Assembly (NCBI GenBank): GCA_022402465.1
Contig: JAKRSH010000017.1
Coordinates: 62,001 to 126,000 of the forward strand
DNA length: 64,000 nucleotides
Origin: Leptospiraceae bacterium
GTDB lineage: Bacteria; Spirochaetota; Leptospiria; Leptospirales; Leptospiraceae
Direction: 5' to 3'
Part shown: positions 46,855 to 53,708 of the stretch, in pieces
How positions within the stretch are numbered: position 1 is the stretch's first letter
How the letters are laid out: every line of letters starts with the position of its first letter
The notes under the pieces: generated by a model
What the model was told of the DNA's origin: nothing
Database searches by the model: none
The model's input: the letters and a program-made list of their open reading frames with translations, nothing else
Translations under genes and position numbers: made by a program

Positions 46855-47325
46855 ATGAAAGGTAGCAATGAAGTAATAGCCGTTTTAGCTGAAGTTCTAT
46901 CAGCAGAATTAACAGCAATCAATCAGTATTTTATTCATGCAAAATTATGTAAAAATTGGGGATACAACAAACTTGCTGATTATCTCAAGCATGAATCCAT
47001 AGATGAAATGAAACATGCAGACGAACTCATAGAGCGAATATTGTATCTAGATGGAATTCCTGATCTCCAGAAATATATGAAGATCAATGTGGGAACCAAT
47101 ATGAACGAGCTGCTTGCGAATGATCTTGTTTTGGAATACAGTGCTGTAGACCGACTCAATAAGGGAATAGACATTTGCGTGGCACAGAAAGACAATGGAA
47201 GTCGTGAATTACTCGAAAAAATCCTCATCGCAGAGGAAGAACATATTGATTGGATCGAAACACAACAATCCATCATCAAAGAAATCGGCCTCGATAAATA
47301 CCTCGCACAAAAGCTCGAAGCCTAA
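46855..47325 (+). CDS. bfr: Bacterioferritin
   Basis: 156 residues. Alignment by eye with E. coli Bfr places ferroxidase ligands Glu18, Glu51, His54, Glu94, Glu127 and His130, all present; Met52 in ESIDEMKHAD is the haem ligand. Twenty-four subunits form an iron-storage shell. AGGAGG lies 8 bases before the ATG, a very strong ribosome-binding site. It is divergent from the thiolase gene. No Fur or PerR box is evident in the 64-base gap. Confidence 0.96.
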   Translation: MKGSNEVIAVLAEVLSAELTAINQYFIHAKLCKNWGYNKLADYLKHESIDEMKHADELIERILYLDGIPDLQKYMKINVGTNMNELLANDLVLEYSAVDRLNKGIDICVAQKDNGSRELLEKILIAEEEHIDWIETQQSIIKEIGLDKYLAQKLEA

Positions 47326-47347
47326 TTTTTTTAACCCCGAACAAAAA

Positions 47348-48502
47348 TTGCATGAATTCCATGCAATTTGCTCAGAAGGACTTCTTTCCTTTCTAAGGGA
47401 GGAAGTTCTTTCTCACAATCTCAAGATACAATCTGAAAATCGAGGTGGAATCTTTTTTACGGGAGAACTCTCTGATGTATTTCAATTTTTAGCATCCACC
47501 GAAGTTAGCTCAAAAGTTGGAATCAGTCTCACTGGATTTAGCATCTTAGATCTGGATGAATTCTATGATAAGGCAGTAAATCTTCCTTGGGAAAATGTTT
47601 TGGGTCCAAGAACCAAATTCAAGATAGAAGGAAAGACGAAAGATTGTCTTTCTGATTCAAGATTTGCTATCTATAAGCTAAAGGATGCAATACTGGATCA
47701 TTTTAGAGAAATTGAAGCACCGTTTCCCGATGTTGATGTTGAATCACCTGATGTAGTATTGAACATAAGATCCTTTCAGAACCAAGTTCGCATTGAACTG
47801 CTTTTACATAAATCAAGTTTAACCAAACGTGGCTACCGCGAAAAAGCGGGAGATGCGACTTTAAGGGAAAATATTGCAGCTGGTCTTTTGAAATTTTCTG
47901 GTTGGAAACAAAATACTCTACTTATAGATCCTTACTGTGGCCAAGGAACTATCCTCATTGAAGCAGCCCTCAAACTAAAAATGGGATTATATAAGAATAA
48001 AAATAATTTGATCGCCAAAAGAATTTTAATCAATTTATTTCCAGAGTTTGACTTTGAAAACTTTTTGCCAGAAGCTAAGGTTACAGCAAAATCTAAACCA
48101 CTTTTAATTGGATTGGACATTTCTTCCAATGCAATTGAACACGCTCAATTAGATGCAAAGAAAGCAGGTGTAGAAGAATGGATTCATTTCACTGAAGGAA
48201 ATCTAAATGAATTGAGTTTTCTCTTATCTCAGTATCCTAAAGAAATAGAAAGATTTATTGTAACTGATCCTCCTTTTGGGAAAAGATTGGGAACTAGAGA
48301 TGATGCCGTCGCAATTTACACGGAATTAGGTGCCTACATCAAGGAACATATTAAACCATCAAACCTATGTATCATAACTTCCGATCCATCTTTGCTTGGT
48401 CATTTGAAATTAAAAAAAGATGCAGAGCTAAGTTTAAAAAATTCAAATCTAAAATCAAAAATGGTTAAATATAAAATAGAATGGAAACCAGAGAAATCCT
48501 AA
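47348..48502 (+). CDS. RlmL-type 23S rRNA (THUMP + UPF0020) methyltransferase
   Basis: About 384 residues from TTG at 47348. The product begins HEFHAICSEGLLSFLREEV, like RlmL proteins; THUMP region about 45-155; PYCGQGTILIEAA is the SAM motif I-like segment; FIVTDPPFGKRLG has the catalytic DPPF. It would N2-methylate a guanine in 23S rRNA. The frame is open far upstream into bfr, so the start is set by homology; no ATG precedes the conserved region downstream of bfr, and no Shine-Dalgarno is seen. It overlaps the next gene by 22 bases. Confidence 0.83.
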   Translation: MHEFHAICSEGLLSFLREEVLSHNLKIQSENRGGIFFTGELSDVFQFLASTEVSSKVGISLTGFSILDLDEFYDKAVNLPWENVLGPRTKFKIEGKTKDCLSDSRFAIYKLKDAILDHFREIEAPFPDVDVESPDVVLNIRSFQNQVRIELLLHKSSLTKRGYREKAGDATLRENIAAGLLKFSGWKQNTLLIDPYCGQGTILIEAALKLKMGLYKNKNNLIAKRILINLFPEFDFENFLPEAKVTAKSKPLLIGLDISSNAIEHAQLDAKKAGVEEWIHFTEGNLNELSFLLSQYPKEIERFIVTDPPFGKRLGTRDDAVAIYTELGAYIKEHIKPSNLCIITSDPSLLGHLKLKKDAELSLKNSNLKSKMVKYKIEWKPEKS

Positions 48503-49629
48503 CAAAGCTTCTTGAAGTTACTGAAGACCAAAAAGATGGATTACAATATCTTGAATTCTTTAAGTCTTTAGAACCTTGGAGATTCGCACTTGTCTATCCA
48601 ACTCCTGATTCCATCATTGAATCTTGGGACGCCCTATTCTATCAATTGAGAATTTTGTTTAAGCTAGGCTTGTTTCCTGTTGTTCTTCTGCATTCCTCTA
48701 TGCCTTATTATGCAAAAACTTTTTTTCAAAATTTCCAATCAGAAAACTCAGATAATTTAGAAGTTCCGTTTCAATGGATACGAAAACAAGATGCTATATT
48801 ACAAAAAATTCAGGATTCAATATCTAAGAAAAGAATTCCTGTTATACTCACTAAAGATAAAGATGATTCTATTTTTTCTATTATTCAAGAGTTGATATCT
48901 ACTTTAGATTCTAACAAACTCATAGTTTTAAATCCAAGATCAGGTATTCGTAAGAAACAAGATGCTACCAGATTTTCTATTATAAATTTGCAAACCGACT
49001 ATCCTAAACTTATCTCAGAGGCTTTAGTAGATGAAGAAGATTTGCCCCTTTTGAAAAATATTTCTAAAGTTGTACAATTTGTTCAAAAATCTAGATTTAC
49101 AGCTTCTGTTACTTCTCCAGTTTATTTGCTCAAAGAACTTTTTACTGTCAAAGGTAGTGGAACTTTAATTCGAAGAGGATCAGTTTTAACTAAGCATATT
49201 AATTTCAAATCTTTAGATAAAGTCAGATTAGCAAGTTTAATTGAAGCATCTTTTCGAAAATCACTGAAAACAAGCTTCTTAGATAAAAATCAATTCGATT
49301 CTATATTATTGGAAGGTGATTACAAAGCCTGTGCCTTATTTATTCAATGGAAGGATGGAGTATTACTCTCAAAGTTTGCTGTGGATGAAATTGCAAGAGG
49401 AGAAGGAATTGGTAGAGATATTTGGGATATGATGAAAGAACTTTATCCAAAGATAATTTGGCGTGCCAAAAGGTCTAATTCTATCAACTCCTGGTATGCT
49501 AAAGAAGCTGATGGACATTGGAAGGATAAAAATTGGTATTACTATTGGATTGGAATCAAAGCTACAGAGGTTGTTGAAGTGATAGAATTTCTTAGTAGTT
49601 TAGAAGAAGATCTTGAGATTATTACATGA
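48481..49629 (+). CDS. N-acetylglutamate synthase-like protein (degenerate kinase domain + NAT domain)
   Basis: 382 residues. The C-terminal half (about 225-375) resembles the NAT domain of NAGS/NAGK-type enzymes: VKGSGTLIRRG, SLIEASFRKSL, SKFAVDEIARGEGIGRDIWDMM with the acetyl-CoA loop, and IIWRAKRSNSINSWY. The N-terminal half (about 20-215) looks like an amino-acid-kinase fold without clear ATP motifs. It would acetylate glutamate with acetyl-CoA, the first step of arginine synthesis. No other arg gene is nearby. It overlaps the RlmL-type gene and the next gene (ATGA). Confidence 0.8.
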   Translation: METREILTKLLEVTEDQKDGLQYLEFFKSLEPWRFALVYPTPDSIIESWDALFYQLRILFKLGLFPVVLLHSSMPYYAKTFFQNFQSENSDNLEVPFQWIRKQDAILQKIQDSISKKRIPVILTKDKDDSIFSIIQELISTLDSNKLIVLNPRSGIRKKQDATRFSIINLQTDYPKLISEALVDEEDLPLLKNISKVVQFVQKSRFTASVTSPVYLLKELFTVKGSGTLIRRGSVLTKHINFKSLDKVRLASLIEASFRKSLKTSFLDKNQFDSILLEGDYKACALFIQWKDGVLLSKFAVDEIARGEGIGRDIWDMMKELYPKIIWRAKRSNSINSWYAKEADGHWKDKNWYYYWIGIKATEVVEVIEFLSSLEEDLEIIT

Positions 49630-49967
49630 CTAAGATTTTTTTATTTGATGGTGACTGTAAATTTTGTACCAATCTTGCTTCCTATTTGAAGGATAAATGT
49701 CTCAATAAAGAAATAAAGTTTCATTCTTTTAGAAATCTCACTCAAGTAGATTTAGAAAAAATTCACCCCCAGCTTACATTAGAATTATGTTTAGGGAACG
49801 TTCAATACATTTATAATCAATCAAGATACCCTGGATTTTTTGCAGTTAGGAAGGTTTCCCACTCCCTTAAATTTTATAGATATTTCTCCTTTATTCTCTA
49901 CCTTCCCTTAGTTCCTATTTTAGGTATTATCATTATGAATCTTCTAAAGAAATGGAAAAAATACTAA
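49626..49967 (+). CDS. DCC (DUF393) thiol-disulfide oxidoreductase-like protein
   Basis: 113 residues. KIFLFDGDCKFCTNLASYL carries the DGDCxFC motif that gives the DCC family its name and forms a CxxC-type redox pair in a thioredoxin-like fold. A C-terminal hydrophobic segment (FILYLPLVPILGIIIMNLL) suggests membrane attachment. The start overlaps the upstream stop as ATGA. The role is unproven for this family. Confidence 0.85.
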   Translation: MTKIFLFDGDCKFCTNLASYLKDKCLNKEIKFHSFRNLTQVDLEKIHPQLTLELCLGNVQYIYNQSRYPGFFAVRKVSHSLKFYRYFSFILYLPLVPILGIIIMNLLKKWKKY

Positions 49968-50010: not shown

Positions 50011-50712
50011 CTAAAAAATAGCAGAAGATACATTTAAGATACCTTCATAAAAAATAAGTCTAGCATCAAGAGCCAATTTATTTCCTTCTCTTACAGAATC
50101 CTTATCTGTCTCGTTTAAAGCTACAGTATCAATGAGATCAAAAAGACGTTTTGAATGACCTTCGTCAGCATCCAAATTTACTGTAAAAAATTTAGGTTCA
50201 GGAAGAATATCTTTCGCATCAATATGGATTCTATTTTTGAAAATCTGGTATAAATTATACATTTCTGAATATTCTAATTTTAAAAGATATTCATTTGCAG
50301 GACCAAGAGCGCCCAGACCATGTAGAAAGGACATTTTGATAATGCCCTCCATAGTATCTAAGTAGTTTTTCGTCTCAGGTAAAATTTCTCTAATTCTAAC
50401 TGAAACTTGCAATTCTTCTAAGAATTTACGCAAAATACTAACGTGCGTATTTTCTATTTTACCTTCTCCTAATTCCTCCCATACATTTTGTACAAGAATT
50501 ATTTTTGAAGTTTGGTCAGATGTTTGAGCAGCTGTCCATAGGAACCAATTTACAAAAGAAACCGATACATGAAATTCTTGTGCAAGCCAATAGATAAAAT
50601 CATCCTTATTCAGATTGGATTTTACTTTTTTAGCAAGTAACCAAGGATTTTGTAAAACTGGATGGTCTTGCACAGTTTGAATTAGTTCTTGTCTAAAGGA
50701 AAGATTTCCCAT
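50011..50712 (-). CDS. Haem-oxygenase-like diiron oxidase (HDO, PF14518-like)
   Basis: 233 residues, all helical, no signal peptide. NVWEELGEGKIENTH (76-90) supplies the Glu/His ligands of the first metal helix, EYLLKLEYSE (141-150) a second Glu, and FTVNLDADEGH (176-186) the D-x-x-H ligands. Where related proteins such as CADD and BesC have a further His (H-x3-D-x2-H), this one has Asn179. HDOs use two irons and O2 for C-C cleavage, N-oxygenation or self-sacrificing amine chemistry. It overlaps the ATP-grasp gene by 20 bases and is the last gene of the three-gene operon. Confidence 0.75.
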   Translation of the reverse strand: MGNLSFRQELIQTVQDHPVLQNPWLLAKKVKSNLNKDDFIYWLAQEFHVSVSFVNWFLWTAAQTSDQTSKIILVQNVWEELGEGKIENTHVSILRKFLEELQVSVRIREILPETKNYLDTMEGIIKMSFLHGLGALGPANEYLLKLEYSEMYNLYQIFKNRIHIDAKDILPEPKFFTVNLDADEGHSKRLFDLIDTVALNETDKDSVREGNKLALDARLIFYEGILNVSSAIF

Positions 50713-51748
50713 ATTGATACCTGTTTGAAATATGAAATTGGCTTATGGCATTCTCTATTATTTTTTGAATCATGTTAGTATATTCTAAGTTAGAAGTTAG
50801 CTCTAAGATTTTAGGAAATAAGCTATAAACTTTTGAAAGTCCAGGAGTTGTATTTATTTCTAAGAATTTTGTTTGGTTTAAAGAGTCCATCTTCCAATCT
50901 ACTCTGGCATAGCCTTCACAACGAAGTTCATTTACAAATTCCAAACTTTTCTTTTCCATAAATATTTTTAAATGTTGGTTGGAGATTTTATTTACAGATT
51001 CTGGCATAGAAGATTTGGATTTCGTTTTGCTATCGTACACTTTTCCTGGTGCAATAATTTGAGCTGAACCAATCAACCAACCTTCATCTCTAGTTTGTAG
51101 CAAGGCTACAGAGTATTCGTCACCAGATAGATATTCTTGGATCAATATTTCATCATAAGAATCAAGTAATTGCGTCGCAAGTTCTTTGACTTCTTTGATA
51201 GAGTGGCATATTGAATTTTCAAAAATACCTATACTAGAGCCTTCTAAATTGGGTTTTACAAAAAATATATCTGCCTTTGAGTCAAAAAAAGTTTCCACAT
51301 TTTGCAATTCATCTGAACTACGAATACGCATTTCAATAGGAACAGGAATCGATATGCTCTTTGCAATTTGTGTGCAAAGATATTTATTTATATTTATAAT
51401 ATTTACATGTGCATCACTTCCTATACAAGAAACTCCCAGGTATTCTGCAATCGCTGGAATATAAGCTTCTCTGTTTCTAGAAGCATAGCCTTCCACTAAA
51501 TTCCAAATTATGGTACTTTGTTTTTTAGAAGTTTCCAATGAAGTAAACTTTTGTAAAAACTCCCAAGGATTCAAAATCATTTCTGCATGATACCCCAGGC
51601 TCTGGATTGTTTGAATTAAGATATCTATAGATTCTTGGGATTCCCATTCCTGAATTCCAGGATGTGGTTTTGTTTGATTCGATATGTTCTTTGGATAAAT
51701 ATCTGCTACCAGCCAAATATTTTCTTTATGATAATGTGGAACTTTCAT
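50693..51748 (-). CDS. ATP-grasp ligase, D-Ala-D-Ala-ligase-like
   Basis: 351 residues. Ddl-type motifs occur in order: [18 protein letters not shown] (substrate and ATP lid region), [29 protein letters not shown], and [25 protein letters not shown] with the Mg-binding Glu/Asn. It would join a carboxylate to an amine via an acyl phosphate. It is distant from the Mur genes and has an extra N-terminal strand ([10 protein letters not shown]), so a housekeeping Ddl role is less likely. It overlaps the radical SAM gene by ATGA and the HDO gene by 20 bases. Confidence 0.85.
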
Positions 51749-52974
51749 ACCAAAAATGATTCTTTGGATGGATTCGATGAGATACTTAAATATGAATTGA
51801 AGTCATCATTAGAAATTATCGTATAATTCTGATTAGAACTAGAACCCAGAGGTTCATATGAAAAATGGAAATCACCAGTCAGTGCAGATCGAAATACATG
51901 AGCTCTGGATGCTTCGTTATAACCAAGATACCAATTTGGAGAAAGGGTAATTTTACCTCCACCGCCAGGAAGATCATTTACAAATTGAGGAATCCCCATT
52001 CCAGCAATTTTACCTCTCATGAATTCAATGATTTCAAGACCCTTAGACAAGGCAGTTCGAAAACCTCTTGAACCTGGAATCAACTCAGGATCATAAAGAT
52101 AATATGCTCTTACTCTCATTTCCAGAAGCTTTCGATGTAGTTCTAGCATCACGGCTGGATCATCATTGATTCCTTTCAAAAGAACGGCTTGGTTCCCTAC
52201 ACTCACCCCTACTCTCAAAAGTTTAAAGATAGCCTGCTTAGCTTGAGTTGTACATTCCTTAGGATGATTGAATTGGGTATTGCAGAAAATGGACAATTTG
52301 TCTGTGTTGTATTTCAATATAATTGAACATAGATCGTCTGTTATGCGCATAGGATTGGTAACAGGATTTCTAGTTCCCAATCTACAAATTTTAACATGCT
52401 CTATTTCTTCTAGTTTTTTAAGTATCCATTCGATTTTAGAATCAGATAAATTTAAAGGATCACCACCCGAAATAACAACATCCGATATTTCAGGATGACT
52501 GTTAATATAGTCGAAGCACTTTTGCAAGGAATCGCTGTCCATACGCTCCTTTGAAAAGGAAACCTTTCTGCCTCTCATACAGTGTCTACAATATACACTG
52601 CACTCATGATTTGAGAAAAGTAAAACTCGGTCCGGATACATATGAGTTAGTCCTGGGACCGGAGAGAGCCTTTCTTCATTTAAGGGGTCTAGGGATTCTT
52701 CGGGAGAAAGAAAAGTTTCCATCTCATCCGGTACTATCATTCTTCGAATGGGGCAAAATTCATTCAATGGATCAGATAAGAGCAAATAATAAGGTGTTGT
52801 TCCCACATTAAGACGAATTGTTTTTTCAATTCCAATATTTTCTGATTTGCTAAGCTGGAAGTATTTTCCAAAGTCCTTGGCTGTAATTCGATTTTGCAAT
52901 TGAAATAAGGCAGTTGAGAATAGAGGATTCGATCCTAATTCTTTCCTATTTTGTTCTATTTCAGTTTCGCTCAT
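51745..52974 (-). CDS. Lysine 2,3-aminomutase-like radical SAM/PLP enzyme (KamA family)
   Basis: 409 residues. The 4Fe-4S/SAM motif is CSVYCRHC (Cys125, 129, 132); ISGGDPL follows; the PLP lysine lies in LPGGGGK (Lys341). Asp295 (YLYDPE) and Asp334 (VNDLPGG) match the two aspartates that bind the substrate's distal amino group in clostridial lysine aminomutase, so a lysine-like substrate is plausible; glutamate aminomutases change both. EpmB is excluded by these features. No AblB-type acetyltransferase is beside it. It starts the operon with an ATP-grasp ligase and a diiron oxidase, suggesting a beta-amino-acid product is passed on. Confidence 0.88.
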
Positions 52975-53042: not shown

Positions 53043-53708
53043 ATGAGATTTACACACCTCGCCTTTGACATAGATGGAACAGTATTTTCTTCTGAAAGTA
53101 TTATCTTGGATACTTACCGAGAATCAGTTGAAGAATTTAAGGCAAAAACAGGAAATAGCATGGCGGTTCCTACCCAAAATGAAATCATGCGTGAAATTGG
53201 AAAACCCGTCAAAACCATCTTTAAAAATCTACTTCCTAATTTGGACCAAGGGTCTAGGGATTCTATTTCTGATCGAGTTCTCTCTCTTTTGGTTGAAAAA
53301 ATTGAAGCAGGAAAAGGTCATTTTTATCCTGGAAGTAAGGAAACAATCATTGATCTCTCAAAAGCTGGGATTCAAATGCTTGCCTGTTCGAACGGTAGGC
53401 TTCCCTATATTGAAGTTATCTTGAAAGTATTGGGTGTTCTCGAACTTTTTCACCCTATTTGTACATTAGATAATGAGATTCGTAAGGAAAAAGGAGATAT
53501 CCTTTTACACTATACTCAGTCACTCTCTCTTGACTCTAAGGCTATTCTCATGATAGGAGATCGTCTTTCCGATTGGGAGGCAGCACAAAAAGCAGATACT
53601 CCCTTTGCATTTTGTAAATACGGGCATGCTGAAAAAGATGAAATTCCGAGTTCCGATTTTGAGTTGGATCAAGTCTCAGATTTGAAAAAAATCGTACTTT
53701 CTGACTGA
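53043..53708 (+). CDS. HAD-superfamily phosphatase (Gph-like)
   Basis: 221 residues. HAD motif I is FDIDGTV, motif II is ACSNGR, a lysine lies in RKEKGDILLHY, and motif IV is MIGDRLSDWEAAQ. A helical cap domain sits between motifs I and II (about 20-85). It would dephosphorylate a small metabolite; phosphoglycolate is the default for this subgroup but is not proven. It is divergent from the KamA-like gene and 24 bases ahead of the GerMN gene. Confidence 0.88.
   Translation: MRFTHLAFDIDGTVFSSESIILDTYRESVEEFKAKTGNSMAVPTQNEIMREIGKPVKTIFKNLLPNLDQGSRDSISDRVLSLLVEKIEAGKGHFYPGSKETIIDLSKAGIQMLACSNGRLPYIEVILKVLGVLELFHPICTLDNEIRKEKGDILLHYTQSLSLDSKAILMIGDRLSDWEAAQKADTPFAFCKYGHAEKDEIPSSDFELDQVSDLKKIVLSD

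Follow-up and report, generated by a model that had tools for sequence, protein, structure and literature searches.

A KamA-type aminomutase and a Ddl-like ATP-grasp ligase as a candidate beta-amino-acid ligation pair in Leptospiraceae, with a haem-oxygenase-like gene placed beside it

The window, the whole stretch of 64,000 nucleotides of Leptospiraceae DNA analysed here, belongs to a host genome of 3.99 Mb in 45 contigs (G000), and contigs deposited as Leptospiraceae MAGs are among its relatives. Three consecutive genes lie on its minus strand. The first (52974-51745) encodes a KamA-family radical SAM/PLP aminomutase of 409 aa with matches to PF04055 (Radical_SAM) and PF12544 (LAM_C), the second (51748-50693) a Ddl-like ATP-grasp carboxylate-amine ligase of 351 aa (PF07478, Dala_Dala_lig_C), and the third (50712-50011) a haem-oxygenase-like (HDO-fold) protein of 233 aa (PF14518, Haem_oxygenas_2). 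According to the ORF coordinates of the window, the KamA and ATP-grasp genes overlap by 4 bases, and the ATP-grasp and HDO genes by 20 bases. The sequence AAGAAG is found upstream of the KamA start. A DCC1-like thiol-disulfide oxidoreductase gene on the plus strand (49626-49967, PF04134), a positional marker common to relatives, converges on the HDO gene, and a HAD-type hydrolase gene, also on the plus strand (53043-53708, PF13419), diverges from KamA and is a positional marker shared with another family genome, G004 (cluster c25). Therefore, the three genes form a unit without further members. An earlier note on this DNA had named the same three families, the two overlaps and a unit closed on both sides, and the domain matches, coordinates and flanking genes agree with it. 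In a promoter scan, promoter-like sites were fewer than in shuffled sequences and terminator-like sites numbered four versus 1.9 expected; neither was counted as evidence. Elsewhere in the window, a ferritin-like gene (46855-47325) and an RlmL-like gene (47195-48502) have a called overlap of 131 bases, and the start of the RlmL-like gene was probably called too early.

The aminomutase of the window is a member of the KamA family by score (TIGR00238, 267.6 bits, cut-off 199.2), with 345.9 bits against the AblA equivalog model TIGR03820, below its cut-off of 525.4; it falls under every cut-off of the equivalog models for AblA, EpmB, and the glutamate and arginine enzymes. It aligns over the full core with lysine 2,3-aminomutase (LAM; PDB code: 2a5h) at 302 bits, and keeps the CxxxCxxC motif of the SAM cluster (Cys125, Cys129, Cys132), the LAM residue Arg134, and the PLP lysine (Lys341). 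In LAM, Asp293 and Asp330 bind the lysine side chain. In the ungapped alignment of the active-site region, Asp330 is kept as Asp334, whereas Asp293 is replaced by Glu297, and the window enzyme also differs from LAM in having CMRGR for CTRRR. Of the two aspartates that the earlier note had regarded as kept, Asp334 stands; its Asp295 lies two residues away from the true position, Glu297. Glutamate occupies this position in all eight family members of this KamA, while aspartate is found in LAM, in a second KamA of the family, and in the KamAs of the extended operons described below, with the divergent L071 as the exception. The acidic pair of Glu297 and Asp334 suggests a basic substrate. The longer side chain of Glu297 could favour a substrate shorter than lysine, and the replacement of Asp293 may indicate a substrate other than lysine itself.

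The ATP-grasp ligase shares its fold and catalytic core with D-Ala-D-Ala ligase (Ddl): Lys165, Arg282, Asp284, Glu297, and Asn299 are common to Ddl and invariant in the alignment, and the structure model (pLDDT 83) matches D-Ala-D-Ala ligases. However, its scores are far below the Ddl cut-offs (TIGR01205, 103.7 versus 245.65 bits; a further curated Ddl score, 109.4 versus 243), and in the tree the window-type ligase stands on a branch apart from the Ddl-type proteins of the family, each clade being fully supported. A tyrosine just before the conserved Lys243, present in the Ddl-type proteins of the family and in other clades, is absent from the window-type ligase; by its place in the alignment, it is probably the omega-loop tyrosine of Ddl. 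A role of the window ligase as the housekeeping Ddl was rejected on account of its scores and its separate branch.

To place the three genes in the family, eight Leptospiraceae genomes from five genera were compared, the genus of the window being represented by one genome; since four of the eight belong to a single genus (g3), counts within the family are not independent. Close homologues of KamA and of the ligase occur in all eight genomes, and the two genes are adjacent in seven, with KamA first and, in the cases inspected, with short overlaps or a gap of at most 22 bases. The exception is G181, in which KamA and the ligase are on different contigs and another gene comes after KamA on its contig. 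In several relatives (L047, L048, L049, L050, and L051), two genes precede KamA, one with a Haem_bd domain and one unnamed, and in several of the same set (L047-L051) the ligase is followed by a gene for a conserved protein of 227 aa that matches nothing in Pfam or NCBIfam.

The partnership extends well beyond the family. When named genomes were searched with the ligase alignment, 14 loci outside Leptospiraceae were recovered. Among 393 Spirochaetota genomes, a ligase search likewise recovered a strong set of matches from outside the family, and 20 of these loci were opened with larger flanks. The ligase alone served as the query, and KamA was then located by six-frame profile searches. KamA lies on the same strand as the ligase, adjoining or nearby, in 22 of these 34 loci, a count that includes related, non-independent genomes and in which several loci scored without KamA end at contig ends. 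Fifteen of the 20 Spirochaetota loci (L148-L152, L155-L157, L159, L161, L163-L167) and seven of the 14 loci from other phyla (L068, L069, L071, L072, L073, L075, L076) contribute to it. If a genome of 3600 genes is taken to have two KamA genes, and the three nearest genes to the left and to the right are counted, the chance of finding KamA near the ligase is roughly 0.003 per locus. Only a second ligase, a GNAT, a deacetylase fusion, or a similar gene intervenes between the two. A search of plasmids with the ligase returned only distant Ddl-like proteins, with no annotated aminomutase in the three neighbourhoods inspected. The KamA/ligase pair is an old and widespread partnership.

Most of these loci have two ligases and a GNAT: the usual long form consists of KamA, two ATP-grasp ligases (sometimes fused into a single long protein), and a GNAT of the RimI-like type. 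Short forms, with a single ligase, are also found elsewhere, as in L068, L148, L155, and L161. A protein of about 580 aa, composed of a GNAT-like part and a histone-deacetylase domain, is encoded in or near five operons (L159:3549-5309, L165:5099-6838, L076, L162, and L166). The window unit resembles these loci in having KamA near a Ddl-like ligase on the same strand, but it differs in that the second ligase and the GNAT are absent, in having glutamate for Asp293, which the other loci keep except L071, and in having an HDO gene, which occurs at none of the 34 loci. The Leptospiraceae KamA and the Leptospiraceae ligase each form a clade of their own in the trees, which resolve their connection with the extended operons only weakly; where the Leptospiraceae ligase joins the first ligase of those operons, support is weak (0.555 for the relevant split). 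Therefore, the short and extended forms may act on different substrates. The window probably says less about the pathway than do these loci from elsewhere in Spirochaetota and from other phyla.

The third protein belongs to the HDO fold by sequence (PF14518, 81.9 bits versus a cut-off of 28.9) and by structure: its AlphaFold model (pLDDT 90) has CADD as the best Foldseek match and also resembles HrmI, BesC, and PqqC. HDOs mostly use three histidines and three carboxylates as metal ligands (PMC13108848). By alignment to the 4-aminobenzoate synthase entry 9pj4, BesC, and HrmI, and by the HxxxDxxH spacing, the ligand positions of the window HDO are Glu80, His90, Glu141, Asn179, Asp183, and His186, all invariant in the seven family HDOs. 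Asn179 stands where a ligand histidine is usual, so that the set, as read from the alignment and not from coordinates, is two histidines, three carboxylates, and one asparagine; the family proteins are, on sequence grounds, an HDO subfamily altered at one metal ligand. The earlier description of the protein as a diiron oxidase is consequently not secured. Nitrospinota relatives keep the ligand histidine, as judged by motif spacing. CADD (p-aminobenzoate synthase), HrmI, and BesC share the seven-helix HDO fold and are the best sequence and structure matches of the window protein. However, besides the asparagine, it differs from CADD in having an invariant leucine (Leu25; family and CADD alignments) at the position of CADD Tyr27 and a CADD model score of 40.7 bits, below the cut-off of 200. 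It is therefore not a self-sacrificing enzyme of the CADD type, and p-aminobenzoate synthesis of that kind was rejected.

The distribution of the HDO gene is different from that of the pair. It is present in seven of the eight Leptospiraceae genomes and missing from G004. No HDO of this kind was found in other families within a sample of 198 Spirochaetota genomes, only two distant, longer relatives were found in other phyla, and a plasmid search found nothing. The gene touches the KamA/ligase pair only in the window genome; in the other six genomes it is on contigs other than those of the pair, downstream of HisC and a Bpt-like gene, with LeuA also upstream if the contig extends far enough. 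This HisC scores above its cut-off and is by score an ordinary histidinol-phosphate transaminase, and in the window genome and G004 LeuA-HisC stands alone. The Bpt-like product that adjoins the HDO in the six relatives (L040:10167-10832 and homologues) is a short ATE_C protein whose N-terminal domain is weak.

The flanking genes indicate how the contact may have arisen. NAT-DCC1 flanks the HDO gene in the window and in G095, G176, and G198, and in three g3 genomes the HDO operon converges on NAT-DCC1. In G004, NAT-DCC1 is followed by what appears from its sequence to be a metallopeptidase-like gene, and then by the ligase, KamA, and the HAD gene, the last three arranged as in the window. The shared flanks (NAT-DCC1 and HAD) suggest that the contact between HDO and pair arose by rearrangement, and the simplest reading of the gene orders is that two neighbouring blocks beside NAT-DCC1 would have been rearranged, bringing the HDO gene against the ligase. 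It is probable that the HDO is not part of the KamA/ligase pathway, since six family genomes have it away from the pair and the 34 other ligase loci lack it.

The explanation that fits best, and that we hold to be somewhat probable, is that KamA and the ATP-grasp ligase together form the functional unit, which makes and ligates a beta-amino acid, and that the HDO gene is there by local rearrangement and not as a pathway step. The aminomutase would probably act on a basic L-amino acid, lysine being the likeliest, and with SAM, a 4Fe-4S cluster, and PLP would shift its amino group from the alpha position to C3, which would yield beta-lysine or a closely related compound. In the next step, the Ddl-like ligase would activate a carboxylate as an acyl phosphate and couple it to an amine, so that the product would be a small beta-aminoacyl amide or dipeptide. 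The wider relatives extend this with one more ligase and a GNAT, in some cases also with the GNAT-deacetylase fusion, Leptospiraceae having the short version. The HDO would be an independent gene of the family, moved downstream of the pair by the rearrangement beside NAT-DCC1; it is probably co-transcribed with the pair and yet probably not a step of its pathway.

The earlier note had instead proposed one route of three genes, in which the beta-amino acid made by KamA is coupled by the ligase and then undergoes O2-dependent oxidation by the HDO. The overlaps of 4 and 20 bases would suit such a route, as would the presence of all seven family HDOs in genomes with KamA and the ligase, and HrmI, which is among the nearest solved HDOs, oxidises lysine (PMC13108848). 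The half of the proposal that concerns the pair is upheld by seven of eight family genomes and 22 of 34 distant loci, and a check of adjacency in related genomes, which the note had advised, finds the pair as neighbours but not the trio. The half that concerns the HDO fares poorly, as contact is limited to one genome, G004 retains the pair without any HDO, the other ligase loci lack the gene, and asparagine replaces a ligand histidine in seven of seven HDOs; the three-gene route is therefore unlikely. A related reading seems quite doubtful: a widespread beta-amino-acid ligation pathway, including acetyl protection and removal in its long form, would have the pair as its short form, and an HDO with a new ligand set of two histidines, three carboxylates, and one asparagine would have been recruited in this lineage to oxidise the product. 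Compatible with the preferred explanation, and possible though tentative, is that the HDO, as a relative that is non-catalytic or has a mononuclear metal site, plays its own part, perhaps together with the Bpt-like gene. The asparagine shared by all seven proteins at one ligand position, the other positions being invariant, and the order LeuA-HisC-Bpt-like-HDO in the relatives are consistent with this, and FlcD provides a precedent, in which the loss of two ligands leaves a mononuclear site with one iron (PMC13108848). On the other hand, the invariance of five of the six usual ligands argues for retained metal binding, and a role with the Bpt-like gene is at odds with G004, which has a Bpt-like gene without HDO, and with the window genome, which has only a distant, full-length arginyltransferase.

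The known uses of beta-lysine offer a further alternative, in which KamA would serve the osmolyte N-epsilon-acetyl-beta-lysine or EF-P beta-lysylation and the ligase would be unrelated. The AblA/AblB pathway begins, like the window pair, with a KamA-type enzyme, and the window genome does contain efp and an EpmA-like gene. However, a search with TIGR03827 found no AblB in the window genome and none above the cut-off in the eight family genomes, and a ligase stands in the place of AblB; the AblB route was rejected, and the earlier note's own counter-proposal, that KamA serves only acetyl-beta-lysine synthesis with AblB encoded elsewhere, finds no AblB above the cut-off to rely on. As to EF-P, the second KamA of the window genome (G000:C21, L053:5641-7405) lies beside efp in divergent orientation and keeps the LAM-type aspartate. 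The same contig carries the EpmA-like gene, a 370-aa open frame whose score falls slightly short of the EpmA cut-off. Therefore, EF-P beta-lysylation probably has its own enzyme, and an EpmB role for the window KamA is disfavoured. With the conserved contact between KamA and ligase also against it, this alternative is very improbable.

No description of the KamA/ligase/HDO combination and no characterised counterpart of the KamA/ligase unit were found in the open-access literature, in line with the earlier note, which knew of no characterised pathway of this kind. A 2009 paper on ATP-grasp amidoligases (Iyer, Aravind and colleagues, Molecular BioSystems) may list a KamA-ligase-GNAT operon. The HDO subfamily with asparagine at a ligand position poses a separate question, namely how small a number of ligands suffices for an O2-activating HDO. 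In the extended operons, the presence of an acetyltransferase together with the GNAT-deacetylase-like fusion suggests a protecting-group strategy, in which an acetyl group would be added and then removed. If the proposal for the pair is true, Spirochaetota and several other phyla would make beta-amino-acid amides or dipeptides without ribosomes or NRPSs, and such compounds would have been overlooked because annotation labels the two genes lysine aminomutase and D-Ala-D-Ala ligase.
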